In this document: positions 1-45,804 of the stretch, one piece after another
How the letters are laid out: the number at the start of each line of letters is the position of its first letter
Numbering within the stretch: the stretch's first letter is position 1
Assembly (NCBI GenBank): GCA_030531205.1
Contig: JAUNOC010000002.1
Coordinates: 124,001 to 188,000, forward strand
DNA from: Phascolarctobacterium sp.
Lineage (GTDB): Bacteria; Bacillota; Negativicutes; Acidaminococcales; Acidaminococcaceae
DNA: 64,000 nucleotides
Direction of reading: 5' to 3'
Made by a program: the position numbers and the translations under genes
The notes under the pieces: model-generated
Seen by the model: the letters and a program-made list of their open reading frames with translations, nothing else
Databases searched by the model: none
What the model was told of the DNA's origin: nothing

Positions 1-685
1 GCATAGCGTTCTTAATCATCTCTCCACGCATATCAAGATAATGTTTCTTTTGCAGGGCATCCTTTATAGTGCTTATAAACTTGTTGAAATCCTGACCTTT
101 GTATTTTTCGTAGAGCAGGTTCAAGAGTTCCTTGTTCAACCACTCCGGTACGGTGAACTGCATATTCTGTGTCAAAAAGCAAAGTGCCATCTCCGGGCTT
201 GGTTCAACCGTGTCACCATTATGCAAAAAGAGTTCCTGTGTTTCGTTACGCAAAAGATGCAGGGCATATTGTACCCTTGTTTTGGCATCAAGATTGGCGG
301 CGGTCATGGTGTTATGAAAATTATCCAGCATAAGTTTTTTGTCCGCCGGCACATCTTCATAGTTCCGTTCCAAAACCTCAACCTCTAAATCCTTTAACCT
401 TCTCCAGGCACGCTTTAAGTCCTTGTCCGTCCAACGGTAGGGGAGATTAAGTATCTGGTGCAGAATACCGTTAATGTGGATAATATCAATGCGTTGCAGT
501 TTCAGACCTTTGGTGGTTTGCATACGGCTGATAAACTTTGCCGCCGCATCTTTTAACTTGCGCCGTTTTTGAAAACGCCTTTGATGTTCCTTGTAGTATT
601 CTCTTTTTTCCTTTAATTTTCCATCAGTTTTATTTTGTTCGTCATTTTCCTGATTTGTTATTTTTTCGTTCATAATTTCATCCAT
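1..685 (-). CDS. orphan highly charged protein, copy 1 (3' end outside window)
   Basis: The minus-strand frame is open from an ATG at 685 to the left edge. A strong Shine-Dalgarno (complement of 692-698) precedes the ATG. I do not recognise the family. The protein is about 80 percent identical by eye to the complete copy at 44678-45364; aligned to that copy, only about the last eight codons and the stop are cut off. It has a variable acidic/Asn-rich N-terminus (about 25 residues), then a Lys/Arg-rich stretch (residues 30-45), then a mostly helical charged body containing the motif FHNTMTAANLDAKTR. There is no signal peptide, membrane segment or cysteine cluster. A nucleic-acid-binding role is conceivable from the basic stretch but unproven. 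The gene has its own promoter and an unusual palindromic leader. Confidence 0.8.
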   Translation of the reverse strand, partial: MDEIMNEKITNQENDEQNKTDGKLKEKREYYKEHQRRFQKRRKLKDAAAKFISRMQTTKGLKLQRIDIIHINGILHQILNLPYRWTDKDLKRAWRRLKDLEVEVLERNYEDVPADKKLMLDNFHNTMTAANLDAKTRVQYALHLLRNETQELFLHNGDTVEPSPEMALCFLTQNMQFTVPEWLNKELLNLLYEKYKGQDFNKFISTIKDALQKKHYLDMRGEMIKNAM

Positions 686-722: not shown

Positions 723-794
723 GTTTTTATATAAAAATCGGAGTTTTTATATAAAAACCGCCCCTATTTTATAGAATTTTCTTTTTTAAGTCAA
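723..794 (-). promoter_or_regulatory. promoter and doubled palindrome upstream of orphan gene copy 1
   Basis: Read on the minus strand, TTGACT (789-794) and TAAAAT (766-771) are separated by 17 bp, a good sigma-70-type promoter. The predicted transcription start falls near 759, exactly where two copies of the self-complementary word TTTTTATATAAAAA begin (744-757 and 724-737, 6 bp apart). About 45 bp upstream of the -35 box are nearly identical to the same position before copy 2 at 45364. The doubled palindrome could be an operator or a 5' mRNA structure. Confidence 0.6.
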
Positions 795-24468: not shown

Positions 24469-24660
24469 GTTTCAGGTGTGAGGTGTCAGGTTAGAGGAAA
24501 AGTTAGCATAAAGCGAACCCCTGCGTCCCCTTGCGAGGGGAAGAGAGCCACGAAGTGGCGAAGGGGTAGTTTGCGTAGCAAGTTGGTATGGTGGGGAATG
24601 AGTAGAAAAGTAGGTTTTGAAAAAATATTTTTTTCGTAACCTACTTTTTGCTTTTTTTTG
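24465..24660. repeat. heptad array plus hairpin-rich payload, locus G1
   Basis: Words ATTAGGT, TTCAGGT and variants (24465-24499) start at the stop of the P-loop/Asp23 gene. The following DNA contains small hairpins, CCCCTTGCGAGGGG (24529-24542) and GCCACGAAGTGGC (24547-24559), and the word GAGTAGAAAAGTAG, also present at locus A. It ends in a terminator. No core is visible. Confidence 0.6.
24609..24660 (+). terminator. probable rho-independent terminator after the dapA-pepA run
   Basis: AGTAGGTT (24609-24616) pairs with AACCTACT (24638-24645); an inner A-rich/T-rich stretch also pairs. A T-rich tail follows. It lies 140 nt after the last gene of the run. Confidence 0.65.
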
Positions 24661-24688
24661 GACTCCTTTTATATATAGAGGGAAAATA

Positions 24689-24963
24689 TAATGCGTAATG
24701 CGTAATTCGCAATGCGTAATTATGGTAGGGATGTTCCTGTGATTAGAATTAGGTTTCAGGTGTGCGGGGTTATGCGAACCCTCGTCCTCCCATAAAGGGG
24801 CAAAAGTAAATGAAAAGTTAAAAATTAAAAATGAAAAATTACGGTAATATGTTCCGTTGATTATAATTGGGAATTTTCGGCTTTGCCGAAAATTGACCAT
24901 AATTTACAACTTTTAATTTATAATTTTTAATTTTGTTATGGGTGGTGGGGTGAGCAATTAGGA
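24689..24963. repeat. composite element with a second element nested inside it, locus G2
   Basis: The outer element has a TAATGCG array (24689-24723), core GTTCCTGTGATTA (24733-24745), and payload ending in CCCATAAAGGGG (24789-24800). The payload resumes at 24935 with GGTGGGGTGAGCAATTAGG, as in uninterrupted locus C. Between lies a complete second unit (about 24805-24934): AAATTAA-type array, core GTTCCGTTGATTA (24851-24863), hairpin AATTTTCGGC-ttt-GCCGAAAATT, and an inverted TTTTAAT-type array. Confidence 0.8.
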
Positions 24964-24974
24964 TGTCGCTAATG

Positions 24975-25272
24975 AAAAGATAAAAACTTAAAACTTAAAG
25001 TTATGGTAAGTTGTTCCTGTGATTAGAATTAGGTTTCAGGAAAGTTGGCATTGAGTGTACCTCCCTCTTTTGAGGGAGGGGGACCGACTCAGTTTTTAAG
25101 TAGTCGGTGGAGGGAGTGATTAGGCGGTGACAATGTTTCTGCGTAATCCGCACCCCCAGTCGCCTTTCCTTGTTCCTTTAGGCGCCAGCCCCCGCAAGGG
25201 CGGGGGCTATTGTACAGTTAGAAGTTGTAAGTTAGAAGTTATAAATTAAAGGTAAATAGTTCCTGTGATTAA
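24975..25272. repeat. further element copies, locus G3/G4
   Basis: AACTTAA words (24986-25003) precede core GTTCCTGTGATTA (25013-25025). The centre carries CCCTCTTTTGAGGG (25064-25077) and a GC-rich hairpin AGCCCCCGC-AAG-GCGGGGGCT (about 25187-25208). A new array of GTTAGAA/GTTATAA words (25217-25249) and a core (25259-25271) follow. Confidence 0.72.
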
Positions 25273-25290
25273 TCTTCATTCCTTTGTCGC

Positions 25291-25430
25291 AGGCAGGGAA
25301 ATACCTGAATTTTCTGAGGGAAATTCAGGTATTTCCCCAGTTTAGAATTTTACCGGACTTTTTCTCTTTGTTGTTGCAAGTCGGGAAATTGGGTAATTAT
25401 CCAAGGGAAATTACCCAATTTCCCTGTTTT
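25291..25430 (+). repeat. tandem pair of perfect hairpins with different stems
   Basis: Hairpin 1: arms 25296-25312 and 25321-25337, 17 bp perfect, 8-nt loop. Hairpin 2: arms 25383-25398 and 25409-25424, 16 bp perfect, 10-nt loop, followed by a T-rich tail. Both stems start GGGAAAT and end ATTTCCC. Both loops lead into AGGGAAATT, and both are preceded by similar TGT(C/T)GCA(G/A)G sequence, yet their inner arms differ with both sides changed together. They look like duplicated structures kept by selection. There is no convincing reading frame. Confidence 0.75.
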
Positions 25431-25486
25431 TATTTTTGCTTCGCTTTTAACTCATCGTTGAAAAGTATTTAGAACAGCAAAATCTC

Positions 25487-25535
25487 AATTTCAAAATGGC
25501 GACATTTTGATATAAAATGTCGCCATTTTGAAATT
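25487..25535. repeat. perfect 22-bp inverted repeat
   Basis: Arms 25487-25508 and 25514-25535 are exact reverse complements around the 5-nt spacer GATAT. The stem includes TGGCGACATTTT. No T run follows directly, so it is not an ordinary terminator. It is in gene-free DNA between the dap/pepA run and the minus-strand hydF group. Confidence 0.85.
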
Positions 25536-25589
25536 AACTTTTCACGATTTTTTCAGTTTTGAATGAGAGAATTTTTTTTGAAATGATTT

Positions 25590-25845
25590 GATAAGTTAAA
25601 AGCGAAAAACTTAAAACTTAAAGTTTGGGAATGCTTCGCATAATGCAAAAACACCCGTCTGCCCCTGTGTTCCTGTGGGCAGCCACCCTCTTTAGAAAGA
25701 GGGAAAAAAGTTCGCATAGTGTGGAGTTTTCCCCACACCCTTTTATTCCCTCTCCCCAAGGATAGGGTCAGTTCGCATTATGCGGACTTTTTTATTTTAA
25801 TCAATGGAACATATTACCATCATTTCTAATTTCTAATTACTTCAA
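25590..25845. repeat. composite element, locus H
   Basis: AACTTAA words (about 25603-25625) form the left edge. The centre has CCCTCTTTAGAAAGAGGG (25688-25705) and a terminator-like GTTCGCAT-TATGCGGAC hairpin with T run (25770-25795). The inverted core TAATCAATGGAAC is at 25798-25810. The right array, TTTCTAA-type (25822-25839), reaches the stop codon of the minus-strand gene at 25837. Confidence 0.7.
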
Positions 25846-26196: not shown

Positions 26197-26261
26197 TTTT
26201 TCACCTCATAAAATATTTTTATTTATTTTAGCATAAAGAAATGTATTTATCAATAAAATTT

Positions 26262-26410
26262 AGTTTCAGGTGTCAGGTTCAGGGTAAAGGAATTAGGGAA
26301 ATAAAAGGCGTAAAGCGTAGGGCGTAAGGCATAGGGATGGCAATATGTTCCTGTGATTAAAACATAATCAACGGAACATCATACCACAATTACTCATTAC
26401 TAATTACTCA
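26262..26410. repeat. minimal composite element, locus I (hydF downstream gap)
   Basis: The clearest small copy. Core GTTCCTGTGATTA (26347-26359) and inverted core TAATCAACGGAAC (26365-26377) are only 5 bp apart. On the left are arrays of GGTGTCA-type (26268-26288) and GGCGTAA-type (26308-26336) words. On the right a TTACTCA/TTACTAA array reaches the hydF stop codon (26404-26406). Confidence 0.82.
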
Positions 26411-43845: not shown

Positions 43846-44322
43846 ATGCCGAAAAAGACAAATGCTGCCCGAATTTTAGATGATTTGGGGATTGAATACA
43901 AACTAATTGAATATGCAGTTGATGAAGAACATTTAGACGGAGTTCATGTGGCACAGGAGGTTGGACTGCCGGCGGAGCAGGTTTTCAAAACCTTGTGTGT
44001 TCACGGTGATAAAAACAGCGTACTTTTTGCGGTTATACCAGCCAATGGGGAAGTGGACTTAAAGAAATTGGCAAGAGCAAGTGGCAATAAGCGTTGTGAA
44101 CTGGTCGCCTTGAAAGAGTTATTGCCCTTGACGGGATATATTAGGGGCGGTTGCAGCCCTTTGGGAGCGAAAAAAGCATATCCCGTATATTTGGACGAAA
44201 CCTGTATTCTTTTTGAACAGATTGCCATTAGTGCAGGACAAAGGGGGTTACAATTCTTAATCAAACCCGATGACTTGATTAAGGCAACCAAGGCGACAGT
44301 GGAGGAAATTTGTAATTCGTAA
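43846..44322 (+). CDS. ybaK: YbaK/EbsC family Cys-tRNA(Pro) deacylase
   Basis: It hydrolyses Cys-tRNA(Pro) mischarged by prolyl-tRNA synthetase. The 158-residue single domain carries the conserved lysine in QVFKTLCVHGDK, GGCSPLGAKKAYPVY and ISAGQRGLQFLI. The start is ATG 43846; an in-frame TTG lies 12 bp earlier inside tagA. The C-terminal residues NS and the TAA stop (44320-44322) are encoded by the first words of a repeat array, so the natural C-terminus may have been altered. Confidence 0.9.
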   Translation: MPKKTNAARILDDLGIEYKLIEYAVDEEHLDGVHVAQEVGLPAEQVFKTLCVHGDKNSVLFAVIPANGEVDLKKLARASGNKRCELVALKELLPLTGYIRGGCSPLGAKKAYPVYLDETCILFEQIAISAGQRGLQFLIKPDDLIKATKATVEEICNS

Positions 44323-44648
44323 TGCGGAATTTAATTAAGCATTATGAATGCAGAATTAAGAATGAAGGTAAGAAGTTCCTGTGATTAGATTTTGTGAAGT
44401 TAGCAGAGTGAGAACTCTTGCCCTCTTGGTGAAGAGGGTGGATTGCCTGAAGGAACATAGAAGGGCAAGACGGGTGATTGCACACTTCGCATAGCAGATA
44501 AGTTATCAATCCTCAGTCAGCCGCCTATGTTCCTATCGCTGACAGCCCCTTCACCAAGGGGCCTTCAAGTTCGCGCTATGCGGACTTTTTATTTTAATCT
44601 CAGGAACATCCCACCACAATTATTCATTACTCATTACTAATTATTCAT
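44311..44648. repeat. composite heptad/core element, locus K (full length)
   Basis: Words TGTAATT, CGTAATG and then GAATTAA-type run from 44311 to 44367. The left core GTTCCTGTGATTA is at 44375-44387, the inverted core TAATCTCAGGAAC at 44595-44607, and the right array (TTACTCA words) at about 44621-44648. The 207-bp centre contains CCCTCTTGGTGAAGAGGG (44422-44439), CCCCTTCACCAAGGGG (44547-44562) and a terminator-like GTTCGCGCTATGCGGAC hairpin with T run (44569-44590). With both cores inverted it resembles a non-autonomous mobile element, but it has no gene. Confidence 0.78.
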
Positions 44649-44679
44649 AAAAAAAAATCCGCCGCAAGGCGGATTTTTT
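44649..44679 (-). terminator. terminator of orphan gene copy 2
   Basis: AAATCCGCC-GCAA-GGCGGATTT with A/T runs on both sides. Its right arm runs into the stop codon (44678-44680) of the minus-strand gene. It can also stop plus-strand readthrough from ybaK. Confidence 0.9.
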
Positions 44680-45364
44680 AGTCCTCTTCTTCCAATTCTT
44701 CCTGCATAGCATTCTTTATCATTTCTCCCCGTATTTCAAGATAATGTTTCTTTTGCAGGGAGTTTTTTATTGTGGTTATGAATTTGTTAAAATCAGCACC
44801 TTTATATTTTTCGTAGAGCAGTTTCAAAAGTTCTTCGTTAAACCACTCCGGCACAGTGAATTGCATATTCTGTGTCAAAAAACAGAGTGCCATTTGTGGG
44901 CTTGGCTCCACCGTGTCGCCGTTGTGCAAAAAGAGTTCCTGGGTTTCGTTACGCAAAAGCTCAAGGACGTACTGCACCCTTGTTTTGGCATCAAGATTGG
45001 CGGCGGTCATAGTGTTATGGAAATTATCCAGCATAAGTTTTTCATCCGCCGGCACATCTTCATAATTCCGTTCTAAAACTTCAATTTCCAATTCTTTTAA
45101 CTTTCTCCAGGCACGCTTTAAGTCCTTATCCGTCCAACGGTAACGGAGATTCAGGATTTGGTGGAGAATACCGTTGATATGGATAATGTCAATGCGTTGC
45201 AGTTTCAGACCTTTAGTGGTCTGCATACGGCTGATAAACTTTGCCACCGCATCCTTTAATTTTCGGCGTTTGCGGAAACGCTTGTGGTGTTCCTTGTCAT
45301 ATTCTCTTTTCTTGGCTAATTCTTCTTCTTCTTTATTTTTTTTTACTTCTGAATTATCTTGCAT
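44678..45364 (-). CDS. orphan highly charged protein, copy 2 (complete)
   Basis: 228 residues, a complete paralogue of the partial gene at the left edge and in the same orientation. The family is not recognised. The variable N-terminus is rich in Glu/Lys; residues 25-40 are strongly basic (HHKRFRKRRKLKD). The centre has LDNFHNTMTAANLDAKTR and the end is acidic (EELEEED). The predicted structure is mostly helical, without signal or membrane segments. Two near-identical single-gene units with their own promoter and terminator suggest a multi-copy accessory family. Confidence 0.85.
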   Translation of the reverse strand: MQDNSEVKKNKEEEELAKKREYDKEHHKRFRKRRKLKDAVAKFISRMQTTKGLKLQRIDIIHINGILHQILNLRYRWTDKDLKRAWRKLKELEIEVLERNYEDVPADEKLMLDNFHNTMTAANLDAKTRVQYVLELLRNETQELFLHNGDTVEPSPQMALCFLTQNMQFTVPEWFNEELLKLLYEKYKGADFNKFITTIKNSLQKKHYLEIRGEMIKNAMQEELEEED

Positions 45365-45395
45365 TGTTTTTTCCTCCGCAGTTTAATTTTATATT

Positions 45396-45471
45396 GTGTT
45401 TTTGACGTCATATTTGAAATTATGACGTCAAAAACACCATTTATTTTATAGAATTTTTGTTTTGAAGTCAA
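45396..45471 (-). promoter_or_regulatory. promoter and 17-bp palindrome upstream of orphan gene copy 2
   Basis: On the minus strand TTGACT (45466-45471) and TAAAAT (45443-45448) are 17 bp apart. The expected start, near 45436, coincides with the edge of a perfect inverted repeat with arms 45396-45412 and 45421-45437 and an 8-nt centre, containing TGACGTCA in each arm. The promoter matches that of copy 1, but the palindrome does not. Confidence 0.7.
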
Positions 45472-45479
45472 GGATTTCA

Positions 45480-45804
45480 ATGAATACAGATAATTTTTTA
45501 GGAGGTAAAATTAAGGGATGTTAAAAAAATTACACGGAAAAATAAGGTAGTTTCTTAAAGATTTTAATTTTGAGGAAAATTTTTGTGAAAATTTTCTGAT
45601 GTACATATTTTTGCATATAAAGAGATGTGTAATATATGCATTTGGAAGAAAATGGGGAAGTGTTAGTAAAATCTTCTTTGAAATATAGACGCTTTAGGAA
45701 CACTTCGTCAAACCCATATTAATGCTTTTGAAATAATTTTATAATAGTGCCGAAAAGCGTGTAAAAAATAACACCCTCGCTCTAATTGGGGAGGATGTTG
45801 TTTT
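45480..45804. other. gene-free stretch downstream of the radical SAM gene
   Basis: AT-rich, no reading frame worth calling. The first 25 bp (up to about 45505) are conserved with the region upstream of copy 1 at 1-685. An imperfect hairpin with T run on the minus strand (about 45760-45803) is the likely terminator for the radical SAM gene. Nothing else is recognised. Confidence 0.5.

Follow-up and report, generated by a model that had tools for sequence, protein, structure and literature searches.

A genus-restricted protein family in Phascolarctobacterium with paired, copy-specific palindromes at its own leaders and in dispersed repeats

The window analysed here, a 64-kb stretch (64,000 nucleotides) of a Phascolarctobacterium contig, contains two genes that are akin in protein sequence, with an identity of 85-86% where an earlier note made from the letters alone had given about 80 percent. 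As that note had also stated, both genes are preceded by nearly the same minus-strand promoter (TTGACT-17-TAAAAT) and by conserved upstream DNA that aligns from about 45 bp above the -35 box as far as the -10 box, and the palindromes at the predicted +1 are different: copy 1 has a doubled TTTTTATATAAAAA, 20 bp centre to centre, and copy 2 has a perfect 17-bp stem. The features are as follows, with a centred dot marking the centre of each palindrome.

1..685, minus strand: family gene copy 1, truncated where the window starts; full gene at G000:C10:123975-124685, 236 aa (L002)
723..738, no strand: copy 1 operator site 1 (predicted), GTTTTTAT·ATAAAAAT, from the paired-palindrome scan
743..758, no strand: copy 1 operator site 2 (predicted), GTTTTTAT·ATAAAAAC, 20 bp from site 1
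766..794, minus strand: copy 1 promoter TTGACT-17-TAAAAT, -35 to -10 read 794-766
44678..45364, minus strand: family gene copy 2, 228 aa by translation, member of a nine-copy family, with a predicted basic recognition helix at about residues 18-37
45399..45414, no strand: copy 2 operator site 1 (predicted), TTTTTGAC·GTCATATT, from the paired-palindrome scan
45419..45434, no strand: copy 2 operator site 2 (predicted), ATTATGAC·GTCAAAAA, 20 bp from site 1
45443..45471, minus strand: copy 2 promoter TTGACT-17-TAAAAT, -35 to -10 read 45471-45443

The copy 2 stem (45396-45437, with an 8-nt loop) encloses both predicted operator sites and includes TGACGTCA twice. It lies about 6 bp below the -10 box and covers the predicted start point. 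The earlier note had described one palindrome per leader; its palindromic nature stands, but what is present is really a pair of self-palindromic sites, 20-21 bp apart. An unsupervised scan of the 64-kb window for pairs of self-palindromic 12-mers whose centres lie 18-24 bp from each other placed the copy 1 pair first (24/24 points) and the copy 2 pair joint second (22 points), both above simulated windows (n=20), which peak at 18-20 points. The copy 1 pair is unique among the three genomes of the genus. The pair that ties with copy 2, at about 25500, is situated in a 1.3-kb intergenic region of nested repeats (24470-25836) with GGGAAAT...ATTTCCC hairpins of changing middles; a second occurrence of this composite is at C10:97631 and a partial one at C2:60747. 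Its elements in the window are:

25296..25337, no strand: hairpin GGGAAATACC...GGTATTTCCC, same composite element as the pair at 25493..25529
25383..25424, no strand: hairpin GGGAAATTGGG...CCCAATTTCCC, same composite element
25493..25529, no strand: solo pair AAAATGGC·GACATTTT ... AAAATGTC·GCCATTTT, spacing 21; an interspersed element with no adjoining gene

Another intergenic repeat family, with hairpins of the GGTAA.ATGTTCCTGTGATTAGA and CCCTCTTCACCAAGAGGG types, is abundant throughout the genome and is found in the window at 44300-44680, 700-1200 and 26260-26400, among other places.

A profile search revealed that the two window genes belong to a family of nine copies (175-235 aa) in G000, an Acidaminococcaceae genome of 1.33 Mb and 99% completeness whose genus-level group includes Candidatus Phascolarctobacterium caballi and a MAG from horse faeces. 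In the libraries searched the family is an orphan, as the earlier note had supposed, but not a two-copy gene. Members occur in all three genomes of this genus, as whole or contig-broken copies in the other two, G001 and G002. These two assemblies are fragmented, partly through contig breaks in the repeated family genes (within them at G001:C21, C219, C203 and C236, and at G002:C298, C312 and C94), as would be expected if several copies share identical bodies. By contig neighbourhood the copies stand alone, with no evident shared neighbours. No credible member was found by profile search in 56 other Acidaminococcaceae genomes or in a 300-genome sample of the class, and viral contigs, phages and plasmids gave no credible relative. 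One match to the family profile, an 830-aa frame in G018 (E 4e-4), was judged spurious. Pfam, PHROGs and PDB sequences were matched at chance level only; a match to the papillomavirus E2 C-terminus (E 0.08) consisted of a short basic string alone.

The family N-terminus typically reads [NHQ]-x-E-x-x-K-R-[FYSC]-R-x-K-K-K-L. AlphaFold2 models, built from 12 sequences as input and without partner or DNA, were all-helical and placed this basic motif in one confident N-terminal helix, both for L001 (residues 4-49, pLDDT about 90, pTM 0.47) and for L030 (residues 5-30, pTM 0.74). Foldseek searches of PDB and BFVD with the L001 model (pTM 0.47) returned nothing at E<=0.001, and its best VIA Z was 6.3, a value common for helical models. 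The family is probably undescribed, with no relative in the sequence libraries searched or, for the L001 model, in the fold libraries, and a literature search on Phascolarctobacterium palindromes gave nothing relevant.

An operator pair is present in all 10 readable expanded-type leaders (copies 1 and 2 of the window, L004, L005, L006, L007, L008, L021, L029 and L030). Each such leader holds two self-palindromic sites with centres 20-21 bp apart, and the type of site is specific to the copy:

TGAC·GTCA: copy 2, L007
TTAT·ATAA: copy 1
TAAC·GTTA: L004, L030
TTAC·GTAA: L021
TTGC·GTAA: L008
TCGC·GAGA: L029
TGGC·GACA or TGTC·GCCA, flanks differ: L005, L006

Across leaders the sites obey the half-site rule T-N-N-C·G-N-N-A, with window copy 1 as the exception; the outer GTTTTT/AAAAAC ends pointed out in the earlier note are not general in the family, and this rule takes their place. 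That note had held that paralogues lacking palindromes would speak against its reading. Three members (L003, L031 and L017) indeed have no upstream pair, so that the rule is limited to the multiplied copies and does not extend to every member; among the 10 expanded-type leaders there is no such case. Immediately downstream of the L003 gene are a 24-bp palindrome and four ATCTTAC half-sites (L003:2060-2120; G000:C2:38.15-38.2 kb). In L031 a TTGC·GTAA pair follows the stop codon and none is found upstream, and in its G001 counterpart, L017, inspection of the leader found one lone GTAAAATATTTTAC and no pair. The AATCTTAC·GTAAGATT type seen at L003 recurs at C10:28541 and C5:81662.

How operator type and protein may be connected is most directly seen in the L005/L006 pair. 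The DNA of these two genes is 100% identical over most of the body, the terminators are identical or nearly so and the promoters are about 95% identical. Apart from a few single changes shortly after C-K-R-Y-R, the differences all fall within one block that takes in the operator, the DNA between it and the start codon, and about the first 9 codons, giving the N-termini MLDQKER- and MRISNSDY-, whose divergence ends at C-K-R-Y-R. Since about 450 bp of body carry no substitution, we infer that a block was exchanged rather than mutated base by base; judging from the alignment, operator and N-terminal segment must have been exchanged as a unit. The two window copies repeat this pattern at greater age.

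The residues themselves give a less distinct picture. Arginine occupies position +2 in nine copies, all with a C·G centre, and copy 1 of the window has Q at +2 and a T·A centre. Spacing is 20 bp where F, S or C follows the invariant R (copies 1 and 2, L004, L007) and 21 bp where Y does, a post hoc association between residue +1 and spacing that holds in 4/4 and 6/6 cases (Fisher p = 0.005). The earlier note had asked whether palindrome type co-varies with particular residues. Both change together in L005/L006, but statistically the covariation is weak (p = 0.02 to 0.15): the Mantel test gave p = 0.15 with the first coding (n = 9), p = 0.023 after recoding with the L006 half-site as TGTC (n = 10) and p = 0.09 for the two middle residues alone, and tests per position, on positions picked after the bZIP comparison, were mostly not significant. 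A firm recognition code would require more than these ten operator-protein pairs.

Similar pairs are also found away from the family genes. In an unsupervised scan of G000 that covered 684 of 1331 kb plus single loci, about 30 distinct pairs in the 684 kb scored at least 20, against 0-3 in simulations. G002 has 8 pairs with scores of at least 21 in 209 kb, and 400 kb of sequence drawn from four genomes outside the genus yielded none at that level. Many of the solo pairs in G000 are situated in a frame of about 250 bp with two slots 154 bp apart. Frames that are 90-93% identical hold different slot types, as in one case where the frame is 93% and the slot 49% identical, whereas slots that share a type are on average 90% identical. 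The frame was found only in G000; G002 has its own multi-slot elements with another frame. When element slots were placed solely by the homology of their flanks (25 slots, many of them mutual copies, with 20 distinct sequences), the centre was C·G in 50/50 sites, with T at -4 in 49/50 and A at +4 in 50/50. That each arm is symmetric in itself suggests that a dimer binds double-stranded DNA.

Leader operators recur among these solo pairs. That of L007 has five more occurrences in G002 and that of L004 seven more in G000, where the sites are perfect, the spacing is fixed at 20 bp and the spacers differ; the L030 operator, too, recurs as perfect sites at a constant spacing with spacers that vary, and a reversed-pattern control gave 0 matches. 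For several solo types of G000 (TCAC, TTAC, TTCC, TGTC·GACA) no cognate protein was found. The solo pairs are mostly intergenic, hundreds of bp away from gene starts, past the ends of genes or within repeats, although one lies 17 bp before an ORF resembling ispG (C13:37417) and one 238 bp before a DUF1232-like gene (C13:70694). A perfect AACGTT operator pair lies, in frame, inside a folP-like (dihydropteroate synthase) coding region (G000:C13:80084-80111; L062:480-515). At G000:C14, about 37.3-38.05 kb (L080:17298-18158), there is a CRISPR-like array with the repeat ATTATACCATACCAAGAACCAACAGGGAATTACAAC, the last unit of which directly adjoins a TTCC·GTAA / TTAC·GGAA operator pair. Pairs of TGAT·ATCA with 22-bp spacing adjoin two-slot elements (L086:1361, L091:320) and may form a class of T·A-centred operators for which no protein is known.

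We consider it probable that these genes encode a new family of dimeric, basic-helix DNA-binding autorepressors with private operators, the specificity of which changes as an operator-plus-recognition module. Each subunit would consist of an N-terminal basic helix on an all-helical body, and a dimer would read one 8-bp palindrome of the form T-N-N-C·G-N-N-A. Two dimers, 20-21 bp or two helical turns apart, would cover the transcription start of their own gene and repress it; a self-symmetric site that is doubled at two helical turns over the start of a gene for a basic protein is what one classically expects of an autorepressor. Residues just before K-R, together with +1 and +2, may choose the inner bases and the flanks. 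A new specificity would arise through joint replacement of the operator and the N-terminal recognition segment, with promoter and body kept, and copy-specific operator types would insulate the paralogues from one another. The same proteins presumably also bind the operator types in the interspersed, mostly intergenic two-slot elements. As these elements mostly avoid promoters, functions in titration, genome organisation or at transcript ends are likelier than a regulon, and the solo sites are most likely dispersed chromosomal or titration sites, not operators of neighbouring promoters. The copy-specific recognition by the basic protein that the earlier note had put forward is the reading that best fits the paired leaders, the L005/L006 exchange and the predicted basic helix. 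The family, the pairs, the half-site rule, the modular swap and the solo elements are documented at the level of sequence comparison.

Other explanations account for parts of this pattern. The palindromic elements could be non-autonomous mobile repeats of the REP/REPIN kind that the protein mobilises or processes, the leader pair being the parental copy. We regard this as unlikely: the elements are multi-copy, interspersed and intergenic, with a repeated frame, tandem or paired slots, ends such as CATTCAAAAC...GTTTTGAATG and a relation to the gene leaders, but copying of whole elements does not explain slot types that change in a constant frame, and the proteins match no transposase or nuclease in Pfam or PHROGs. 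An ordinary regulon, where each paralogue is a transcription factor that controls the neighbours of its solo sites, would agree with the perfect leader operators at other loci and with the pairs upstream of the ispG-like and DUF1232-like genes. Most solo pairs are nevertheless far from starts, behind gene ends or in repeats, and one is inside the folP-like coding region, which makes such a regulon quite improbable.

The palindromes might also act as RNA hairpins (attenuator, stability element or terminator) with compensatory stem changes as the source of variation, and a basic protein may bind RNA. Each pair can form a stem-loop of 12-17 bp, and that of copy 2 is terminator-like when scored on the opposite strand. 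A stem, however, requires neither self-palindromic arms nor a C·G centre nor T/A at -4/+4, which nearly all sites have, nor a fixed 20-21 bp spacing with a variable loop, and no Rfam family matched; we therefore think a structured RNA very unlikely. Finally, template switching at hairpins perfects quasi-palindromes, and the palindromes here are often perfect. That neutral mutation of this kind produced them, with the proteins as unrelated bystanders, is highly improbable, as it yields no TNNC·GNNA rule, no fixed spacing, no distant recurrence of types and no link to a gene family.

A palindromic-operator autorepressor by itself is an ordinary thing, and the novelty rests on the combination of a new family, a swappable operator-plus-recognition module and multi-slot repeats. 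If the autorepressor reading is true, the genome holds a natural series of protein-operator pairs with specificity swapped on a constant body, and a few proteins and oligonucleotides would suffice for a direct test of how DNA-recognition codes evolve. Basic-helix DNA reading, so far a eukaryotic hallmark, would then extend to bacteria, and the two-slot elements would represent a novel kind of interspersed repeat, variable in the part that serves as a binding site.

Several known systems share part of this arrangement. Like REP/REPIN sequences and their RAYTs, the family has palindromes at its own gene loci and many solo palindromes between genes (PMC3116915, PMC2817692), and the palindrome pattern of a REPtron, leader pairs beside genes plus dispersed intergenic solo pairs, is present. 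It differs in its paired double-dyad sites, its two swappable slots per repeat and its many operator types per genome, and no HUH/Y1 (tyrosine) transposase domain was matched in Pfam or PHROGs. The stoperators of cluster A mycobacteriophages are likewise numerous, dispersed and type-specific, with diversifying specificities (PMC6550527, PMC9283540), but each is one asymmetric site to which a monomer binds (PMC9283540). The sites described here are chromosomal, palindromic and paired, with many paralogues per cell and no phage context, and searches of viral contigs, phages, plasmids and PHROGs for phage-repressor homology gave no credible match. In type I restriction, the specificity of hsdS is altered by exchange of recognition modules on a constant body. 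The family resembles hsdS in this respect and differs from it in that the operator before the gene changes within the same block; restriction genes were not noticed beside the family copies.

The closest parallel to how DNA may be read here is the bZIP basic region (CREB, GCN4, C/EBP, Pap1). The recognition segment, N/H/Q-x-E-x-x-K-R-[S/C/F/Y]-R-x-K-K, aligns with the bZIP consensus in a register that we take to hold position by position, and +2 (R; Q in copy 1) is presumably the position of the arginine that reads the central bases in bZIP proteins. The 8-bp palindromes include several that are identical to bZIP sites (TGACGTCA, TTACGTAA), and the Q for R at +2 in copy 1 accompanies the changed site centre. 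The N-x7-R of the bZIP basic region is found in L006, L030 and L021, with N..K in L003; in the remaining members the place of the N is taken by H, Q, D, Y, W or G. Unlike bZIP proteins, the family lacks a leucine zipper: the predicted helix has stopped by residue ~30-49, where the helical body takes over, and there are two heptad-spaced hydrophobics at most (L18/L25 in L030; L36/F43 in L001). Neither full proteins nor N-terminal segments alone gave a bZIP match in Pfam or among PDB sequences. The family is also bacterial and restricted to one genus, whereas bZIP is eukaryotic, and the bacterial bZIPs reported in the one paper found come from marine sponge isolates and are closely homologous to animal proteins (PMC6213907). 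That we are dealing with an independently evolved bacterial bZIP-like system, in which operator and short swappable N-terminal helix are replaced as a module and two-slot repeats, with their varying combinations of operator types, serve as exchangeable protein-specific marks, is a tentative suggestion and on balance doubtful. Given the lack of a zipper and of a profile match, the family is better said to work like a bZIP than to be one, and its resemblance to bZIP proteins more likely reflects convergence than homology.
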